Assembly: GCA_012522755.1 (NCBI GenBank)
Contig: JAAYJV010000145.1
Span: 1-48,301, forward strand
Direction of reading: 5' to 3'
DNA from: Candidatus Hydrogenedens sp.
GTDB lineage: Bacteria; Hydrogenedentota; Hydrogenedentia; Hydrogenedentales; CAITNO01
Length of the DNA stretch: 48,301 bases
Shown in pieces: positions 20,735-21,879 of the stretch (the first letter of the stretch is position 1; every line of letters begins with the position of its first letter). A model generated the notes under the pieces. It was not told where the DNA came from. It made no database searches and saw nothing but the letters and a program-made list of their open reading frames with translations. The translations under genes were made by a program, and so were the position numbers.

Positions 20735-20769
20735 AAAAAGCCGACCTCTTTAACGAAAGGGGTCGGCTT
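20735..20769 (-). terminator. Intrinsic terminator after the small-peptide cluster
   Basis: On the minus strand AAGCCGACC pairs with GGTCGGCTT; with continuing pairs the stem is about 14 bp around a four-base loop, and it runs into TTTTTG. It begins 21 bases after the last small gene, marking the end of that transcript. Confidence 0.82.
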
Positions 20770-20790: not shown

Positions 20791-20910
20791 TCATCCGTAA
20801 TATTCGTTTTTCTTTTGAAAACGAAAATCATAAAAAGCGCGGTAAACGGTATACACAAAATCCTGAAATGCCGACGCTTTGCGGACCGTGAGTTTCTGAA
20901 TATGCTTCAT
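20791..20910 (-). CDS. Small MKHI-type peptide A (39 aa)
   Basis: A 39-residue gene preceded by GAGGAG nine bases before the ATG. It begins MKHIQKLTVRKASAF and continues with a basic, tyrosine- and phenylalanine-rich helix containing 'RAFYDFR'. It is a clear paralogue of peptide B: both share MKHI, TVR, A.AF and RA.YDFR at the same spacing, about 17 identities in the first 30 columns. It is the last gene before a strong terminator and follows B by 25 bases. There is no signal peptide; an amphipathic cationic helix that binds membrane or nucleic acid is possible. No known family recognised. Confidence 0.72.
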   Translation of the reverse strand: MKHIQKLTVRKASAFQDFVYTVYRAFYDFRFQKKNEYYG

Positions 20911-20935
20911 AAGTGTTTTCTCCTCGCTTCGTGGT

Positions 20936-21043
20936 TTATAAATATTTTGTATGGCGAAAATCGTACCAGGCGCGCCACAGTGAATTAAACAGGGTCAGAA
21001 AGGCATCGGCACGTCTGACAGTCATCTTACGAATATGTTTCAT
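20936..21043 (-). CDS. Small MKHI-type peptide B (35 aa)
   Basis: A 35-residue gene with GGAG eight bases before the ATG. It begins MKHIRKMTVRRADAF, then has a short hydrophobic-aromatic helix ('LFNSLWRAWYDFRH') and ends near 'TKYL'. Paralogous to peptide A, with substitutions that are mostly conservative (Gln/Arg, Leu/Met, Lys/Arg, Phe/Trp), which indicates selection on the protein. It lies between peptides C and A in one transcriptional direction. Function unknown. Confidence 0.72.
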   Translation of the reverse strand: MKHIRKMTVRRADAFLTLFNSLWRAWYDFRHTKYL

Positions 21044-21126: not shown

Positions 21127-21300
21127 TCAATCTGTATCCGCAGGCGGTGTTGTGGTGCCACTGCCACTCGGGTTCTGCGGATCTTTGTTCTGAAAGAGAG
21201 GCAAAAACACTTTCAGAAGGTCTATGATCAGAGTGATCACCACATCAGGTGCCATGGCCGCATGTTCCGGTTTACGGCTCACTGTATGCAAATGTCTCAT
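21127..21300 (-). CDS. Small MKHI-type peptide C (57 aa)
   Basis: A 57-residue gene with GGGAG six bases before the ATG. It begins MRHLHTVSRKPEHAA, the conservative variant of the MKHI start. A hydrophobic segment ('VVITLIIDLLKVFLPLF', about residues 20-36) follows, then a polar tail rich in Pro, Gly, Ser and Thr and ending in acidic residues. The layout is that of a single-span or membrane-surface peptide with a basic N-terminus. It is 35 bases downstream of peptide D. No homologue recognised. Confidence 0.65.
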   Translation of the reverse strand: MRHLHTVSRKPEHAAMAPDVVITLIIDLLKVFLPLFQNKDPQNPSGSGTTTPPADTD

Positions 21301-21335: not shown

Positions 21336-21536
21336 TTACTCTTCATACGAAGGGGTGTCATCCACAGGAGCTCCCGCCTTCAATCCGATTAAAGGCTGTA
21401 CCAGAGGTACGAACACCTGAGAAAAGAAGGAGAGTACAAAGCAGAACCTGGCCTGCAGATCACTGGTGATATTGGTACAAAGTCCGTCGCTTTGTGCCCG
21501 CTGGGGAAGGCGTCCCATAATCCTGATATGTTTCAT
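21336..21536 (-). CDS. Small MKHI-type peptide D (66 aa)
   Basis: A 66-residue gene with AGGAG seven bases before the ATG. It begins MKHIRIMGRLPQRAQ, then a hydrophobic stretch ('FCFVLSFFSQVFVPLVQPLIGL', split here for length at about residues 31-52) and an acidic tail ending 'DDTPSYEE'. Two cysteines (residues about 20 and 32) are present. It shares start motif and architecture (basic head, hydrophobic middle, polar or acidic tail) with C and E. No known family recognised. Confidence 0.62.
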   Translation of the reverse strand: MKHIRIMGRLPQRAQSDGLCTNITSDLQARFCFVLSFFSQVFVPLVQPLIGLKAGAPVDDTPSYEE

Positions 21537-21717: not shown

Positions 21718-21879
21718 TTATTCTGACTCGTCAGATGAAGTGTCAGGTTTCAAGATCTCTTTGCCCTCAAACATGCCCGCAAGAATACCAAGTATCTGAC
21801 CGGCAAGCATGATGTAGCTTCCCAGAGACAGCGAATTGGCCTTTTGAACCGGGCTGCTCAGTCTGATGATATGTTTCAT
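21718..21879 (-). CDS. Small MKHI-type peptide E (53 aa)
   Basis: A 53-residue gene with GAAAGG six bases before the ATG, first of the cluster in transcription order. It begins MKHIIRLSSPVQKAN, has a hydrophobic segment of about 20 residues ('LGSYIMLAGQILGILAGMF') and a polar acidic tail ('KPDTSSDESE'). The prepilin gene ends 129 bases upstream, so read-through from it is possible. It shows the same three-part layout as C and D. Function unknown. Confidence 0.65.
   Translation of the reverse strand: MKHIIRLSSPVQKANSLSLGSYIMLAGQILGILAGMFEGKEILKPDTSSDESE

Follow-up and report, generated by a model that had tools for sequence, protein, structure and literature searches.

The five short peptides A–E encoded in the window, by which we mean the whole 48.3-kb stretch of DNA analyzed, are quite probably precursors of a leader-guided, RiPP-like system that extends throughout Candidatus Hydrogenedentota and derives from SCIFF, with the radical chemistry gone. 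The layout of a RiPP system is present, namely a leader and a variable core near genes for recognition, processing, and export, and the peptides have in common an N-terminal tag, M(K/R)H(I/L/V/M)xx(I/V/L)(S/T)...A. Searches of the peptides against Pfam, NCBIfam, PHROGs, and PADLOC returned no credible match, and a literature search joining Hydrogenedentota, RiPP, and radical SAM found no publication.

The peptide cluster and the A/B pair

Open reading frames of 20–130 aa that begin with M(K/R)H(I/L/V/M) number exactly five in the window, every one of them in this cluster and all on one strand (Table 1). Against the nearest relative, a locus of the same genus (L032), their codons carry 91 synonymous versus 53 non-synonymous changes (A 16/5, B 5/4, C 23/13, D 26/13, E 21/18), and because the changes are mostly synonymous, these frames are real genes, with A and B under purifying selection. 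The dN/dS values are 0.05/0.40 for B and 0.15/2.48 for D, dS being saturated and not estimable for A, C, and E; the reading frame is kept in all five peptides, and the intergenic DNA is 53% identical. The bodies of A and B are of an aromatic–basic helical kind, those of C, D, and E hydrophobic segments. An alternative upstream ATG (MTM...) is available to B, and the GGAG spacing, read by eye, favors MKHI as its true start. The hairpin that follows A is a probable intrinsic terminator, which would end the unit ahead of the gene for glycogen phosphorylase; a terminator consensus scan did not list it, and no candidate stood out in a promoter search at the cluster. As a separate observation, the DNA of B is 90% identical to its counterpart versus 63–80% for the neighboring peptides, with few synonymous changes, and an overlapping signal in it is possible.

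Table 1. Peptides and associated features of the window, with related peptides and genes at other loci
Feature	Position	Strand	Description
Peptide A	20791..20910	(-)	39 aa; second copy of B type; leader MKHIQKLT; helical body ends KKNE
Peptide B	20936..21043	(-)	35 aa; type M(K/R)H(I/L)xxI(S/T)xxRADAFxxFxNAxWRAWxDFRxxK, order-wide
Peptide C	21127..21300	(-)	57 aa; MRHL leader; hydrophobic body, end FQNKDPQNP
Peptide D	21336..21536	(-)	66 aa; MKHI leader; body LCTN...LQARFCFVLSFFSQVFVPLVQPLIGLK, two Cys
Peptide E	21718..21879	(-)	53 aa; MKHI leader; hydrophobic Gly-rich body, end EGKE
Hairpin + U run	20738..20769	(-)	just after A; -18.1 kcal/mol, z = -4.6, 0/200 shuffles as good
Solitary ILxIVGTVL-type peptides	L186 4152; L191 3921; L190 504; L195 3995; L196 1894, 2193; L197 3975, 4276; L185 4271; L201 4005		
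E-like peptide	L184 4016 (own genome, C54); L200 4027		
Solitary RPIS-type peptides	L160 3541; L161 2929; L162 3570; L167 1707		one genus
MKHIKK-type peptides	L135 2722; L142; L143 10398; L150 10234		Bdellovibrionota-type loci
Extra GNAT1-profile GNATs	G020:C3:91648-92184; G042:C12:22798-23346; G047:C523:4123-4635; G051:C70:19901-20449; G054:C174:27441-27986; G056:C527:2428-2967; G064:C315:380-922; G065:C23:9641-10159		

The sequence-only reading had taken A and B for paralogues, and rightly so. Aligned without gaps, they agree at 17 of the first 30 positions and 18 of 33, their Smith–Waterman score is 95 versus a maximum of 51 among 5000 shuffles of B, and B as a query against its own 4.0-Mb genome retrieves A at E = 9.6e-7. 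The MKHI block had been counted toward this paralogy; it is indeed identical in both, but it is common to the other cluster peptides and to SCIFF precursors and thus probably serves docking to the maturase. Likewise supported is the notion that a functional peptide, helix-forming and with a motif that is conserved, has been duplicated. The profile search for relatives and the inspection of their frames, set beforehand as a test, yielded strong relatives with open frames, so that an explanation by chance-only matches or broken frames fails. An AlphaFold2 model built from 24 rows places residues 1–8 of B in coil and 9–34 in one helix (mean pLDDT 75.8). The amphipathic moments of A and B are not significantly greater than those of shuffles, 18% and 10% of which, respectively, are as high (1.8% for one consensus-like relative). 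Alignment A7 leaves out L086, one of the 23 B-type rows listed, and B searched against PDB sequences gave chance matches only.

The further proposal that A and B act as a functional hetero-oligomer is not supported. Among the 54 genomes having the B type, 46 carry a single copy, which makes an obligate A/B hetero-oligomer unlikely; a pair-specific A/B heterodimer was rejected on the strength of copy number across these genomes. Since two full-length copies (E < 1e-10) occur in only eight of the 54, A is a local duplicate. Six of the eight (G000, G001, G003, G008, G014, G016) belong to the window's own family, and the duplication is mostly restricted to a few of its genera.

The leader and its presumptive reader

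By its sequence and modeled fold, the ~620-aa maturase-like protein of the partner operon is a relative of CteB, with a predicted RRE-type leader-binding region, a barrel, one SPASM site, and a fused C-terminal GNAT. The sequence match to CteB (5wgg) reaches E = 1.1e-43 and spans profile positions 4–433; RimL-type GNATs are matched at 3e-6 over 522–635. An AlphaFold2 model of the L077 protein (40 rows, mean pLDDT 86.7) aligns with CteB at Z 27.3 and rmsd 3.5 over 387 residues and with GNATs at Z ~17 over 446–621; CteB-type and GNAT chains fill its list of fold matches, in which the absence of other folds carries no meaning.

The radical-SAM motif CxxxCxxC is absent from all 40 maturase-like rows and from the protein of the window's own genome. 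Controls indicate that the scan detects the motif when it is present: it occurs in 4/4 CteB-like paralogues within the order and in 21 of 23 relatives belonging to other phyla, among which the two exceptions are short or truncated reading frames. Invariant in 40/40 rows are the SPASM cysteines C374, C377, C383, and C406, which we take, from the anSME numbering, to be those of the second auxiliary cluster, together with the N-terminal C25 and C28; the position following CGGG, where CteB-type proteins have a Cys, is occupied by one in only 4/40. These rows (alignment A6) represent 40 of the 42 maturase-like ORFs tried among 52 loci (L075–L126), with two ORFs shorter than 560 aa and partial loci left out. 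In an unrooted tree of 37 rows, which includes 12 of the 40 A6 rows and omits L128 and L138 (fragments lacking the Cys motif) and the in-phylum paralogue L181, the maturase-like proteins form one clade on a long stem (SH-aLRT 100), a topology that fits a single origin followed by long retention.

SCIFF precursors were examined because in CteB their leader forms a strand lying on the RRE (PMC8326336). Those recovered through TIGR03973, in nine of 22 genomes, all start KH(I/L/V)xx(I/L/V) (9/9); precursors beside CteB-like genes of Bacillota read MKHIKVLS... and MKHIITVI..., and one outside the order, MRHIKVVAKRP, adjoins an intact maturase. With a leader profile made from 114 Hydrogenedentota peptides, between one and 16 of 10,750 other ORFs, a background that itself contains SCIFF rows and dispersed tag peptides, score as high as five SCIFF rows; the other four of the nine, for which no ATG start was found, went unscored and have KH(I/L) at the matching place. 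The occurrence of this leader in true SCIFF precursors suggests that the tag probably descended together with its reader, while the bodies and the chemistry were replaced; the leader is short, however, and the case for homology of the tags rests on ~6 residues plus the homology of the partner proteins. TIGR03973 itself, which describes six Cys in ~45 residues, has no match in the window's own genome at E ≤ 10, and most peptide bodies are without Cys.

The partner operon and its co-occurrence with the peptides

The operon runs in the order GNAT (~180 aa), GNAT (~206 aa), CPBP/Rce1-like protease, ABC ATPase, permease, and ~620-aa protein. The peptides lie directly upstream of operon members on the same strand in 34 of 41 loci (the window and L032–L071); of the seven loci that deviate, six, with the window among them, are from genera of the window's family and have their peptides elsewhere, and the seventh (L047) is a contig end. 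The window's own genome has the operon complete and unbroken on contig C173, where the adjacent genes resemble mnmE, jag, and yidC on visual inspection. The CPBP/Rce1-like glutamic protease motifs EExxxR, FxxxH, and a later His are present, and both transporter and protease motifs are intact in this genome; the permease has weak ABC-2 similarity, below the Pfam cut-off. The free GNATs exceed Pfam cut-offs, and the departure of their acyl-CoA loop from the textbook motif decides nothing, since the regular expression used would reject RimL too. PADLOC matches of the ABC ATPase were set aside as generic ATPase matches.

Within the order, the maturase-like gene occurs in 62 of 68 genomes, GNAT1 in 57, and relatives of the B- or E-type peptides in 61. 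The B profile (E ≤ 0.01) matches 54 of the 68 and none of 32 genomes outside the order, one of the 54 (G012) being marginal at E = 0.008 with a match to the leader only; E-type profile matches are confined to the order, and the named loci carrying the same genes are Candidatus Hydrogenedentota, a phylum to which the window, judged by kinship, would belong as well. Any operon gene and any peptide occur together in 61 genomes, the operon alone in two (G066, G067), neither in five (G032, G037, G041, G044, G050), and peptides alone in none, for which a plain hypergeometric calculation gives 2e-6, a number weakened by kinship: four of the five double negatives are one family, so the 68 genomes cannot count as independent observations. 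The remaining double negative is a genome of 60% completeness. Eight genomes have the ~620-aa gene without a B match, and in five of them (G011, G027, G065, G066, G067) the contig ends less than 3.9 kb upstream.

Proposed pathway and competing explanations

How might such a system work? The RRE-type domain would dock peptides with many kinds of body by their MKHI tag, a step strongly suggested by homology. The fused and free GNATs would acylate the peptide, most likely on a Lys close to the helix end, present in nearly all bodies, or on the N-terminus freed by cleavage; whether peptides are acylated we regard as an even call. The CPBP intramembrane protease would plausibly trim the leader, as its motifs are intact, and the ABC pair could plausibly export or flip the product, a membrane-seated helix. 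A Lys follows residue 14 in 131 of 132 MKH peptides and forms an invariant column in 38/38 B-type and 21/21 E-type rows, although a Lys within a body of 25–50 residues is common by chance and the rows are related. Given the GNAT partners, the natural candidate for a modification site is the Lys close to the end of the helix. The near-universal presence and near-constant peptide set in the phylum suggest a standing cell-surface or signaling role more than warfare, in line with what has been argued for SCIFF.

Comparison with known systems helps to place this proposal. With SCIFF/ranthipeptides (TIGR03973 CteA, TIGR03974 CteB/ScfB), the system has in common the KH(I/L/V) leader, the RRE–barrel–SPASM architecture over 430 residues (SPASM here in part, with one Cys set), and wide retention within one large taxon. 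Unlike them, it lacks CxxxCxxC, keeps only one SPASM cluster site, has a fused GNAT, and combines non-Cys helical bodies and several precursors per genome with GNAT, CPBP, and ABC partners. The epipeptide operon yydFGHIJ encodes a peptide, a radical-SAM-type protein, a membrane protease, and an ABC transporter, its protease being of M50 type and its radical-SAM epimerase active. The same four kinds of component stand in one operon here, but the protease is CPBP and there is no radical-SAM motif. GNAT-acylated RiPPs (selidamides, nostolysamides) also have GNAT enzymes beside precursor peptides. In nostolysamides (PMC13060382), a GNAT acylates a Lys, which is also the candidate residue here, but there the leader is of Nif11 type and the partner a lanthipeptide synthetase, whereas here the scaffold is CteB-like and the acylation putative.

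The best-surviving competitor, which we consider somewhat unlikely, holds that the peptides are unmodified, secreted or surface membrane-active peptides akin to bacteriocins or modulins, the CteB-like protein being a leader-binding escort to protease and transporter and the GNAT folds relics or self-immunity. The hydrophobic bodies of C, D, and E (best 19-residue Kyte–Doolittle means 1.9, 1.8, and 1.7) speak for it, as does the make-up of the dispersed peptide types, which are Gly-rich hydrophobic helices; the loss of the radical-SAM motif, the atypical look of the GNAT loops, and the intact transporter and protease would also suit it. However, near-universal presence and slow change within the order are unlike competitive toxins, and three GNAT domains are kept, with the free ones over Pfam cut-offs.

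Two further explanations appear improbable to much the same degree. In one, the maturase-like protein still performs redox or cross-linking chemistry via its SPASM site and N-terminal Cys pair, with an electron source other than radical SAM. The invariance of all six cysteines, beyond the apparent need of a pure scaffold, speaks for it; the missing SAM-cluster motif, the scarcity of Cys after CGGG, and the lack of Cys in most peptide bodies speak against it. In the other, A/B with C, D, and E are small membrane-protein subunits of one complex, and MKHI is a targeting or assembly motif without RiPP-type processing. Several distinct bodies are encoded and conserved together, and B is predicted to be helical from residue 9 on, as this would have it, but the leader matches precursors read by a homologous maturase family, solitary peptides with the same leader and other bodies are scattered over genomes, and most genomes lack the A copy. 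That the peptides are chance ORFs, or a conserved DNA or RNA element read as peptides, is hardly credible, for although B conserves 90% of its DNA versus 53% between genes, the dN/dS pattern with its dominance of synonymous changes refutes it, length variation keeps the frame, ribosome-binding-like sites precede 124 of 132 MKH peptides, and an Rfam scan gave matches below gathering scores only and none credible.

The precursor reading can be carried further, tentatively and with somewhat less than even confidence. In the phylum's ancestor, the radical centre of a radical-SAM maturase may have disappeared while its leader-reading half was retained and a GNAT domain was added, such that one MKHI tag would route many unrelated membrane helices (at least seven here) to acylation at Lys or the N-terminus, cleavage within the membrane, and export. 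The products would be a standing component of the envelope and a distinct class of peptide natural product. If true, a radical-SAM RiPP enzyme would have turned scaffold, with leader recognition kept and chemistry exchanged. The system yields a ready list of precursors. SCIFF is widespread among Clostridia, which has been taken as an argument against an antimicrobial role (PMC8326336); a second system of phylum-wide reach that uses this tag would offer a comparative test for the question of SCIFF function.

Related peptides and genes elsewhere

The window's own genome encodes at least seven tagged peptides, A–E and at least two elsewhere, the E-type profile matching further peptides on C54 and C196 that read MKHLKQLSRIPGSAQ... 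and MKHLKVMTQPRKAMS.... Solitary peptides with the same tag and other bodies are scattered over other genomes. The peptide lists derive from regular expressions that demand the tag and therefore miss variants such as MKRI, MMHL, and MIHV.

Several side observations concern these dispersed peptides. A second widespread solitary MKH type has a body like ILxIVGTVLSSIGALLLTVAPLISK and forms a tandem pair in some genomes. An E-like peptide keeps its synteny in both genomes of the genus, beside genes that by eye resemble rpsB and pyrH. One genus has a solitary type of its own, M(K/R)H(I/V/L)RPISxxKAxDxFGxIFxQxWL..., preceded by a strong AAGGAGG. Small MKHIKK-type peptides lacking the SCIFF Cys pattern adjoin Bdellovibrionota-type CteB-like genes whose radical motif is intact, and by their leaders these peptides are another branch of the same tag. 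The system is also carried by L086, labelled Nitrospiraceae, whose gene place matches contig C638 of G057, a genome of the order; L086 is probably a mislabelled bin.

As for the GNATs, in eight genomes the GNAT1 profile also picks up a diverged GNAT immediately ahead of the first; this additional gene could be either the operon's first free GNAT or a further copy. The GNAT fused to the C-terminus of the maturase-like protein shows weak cross-matches with the operon's first free GNAT, and the two look paralogous.
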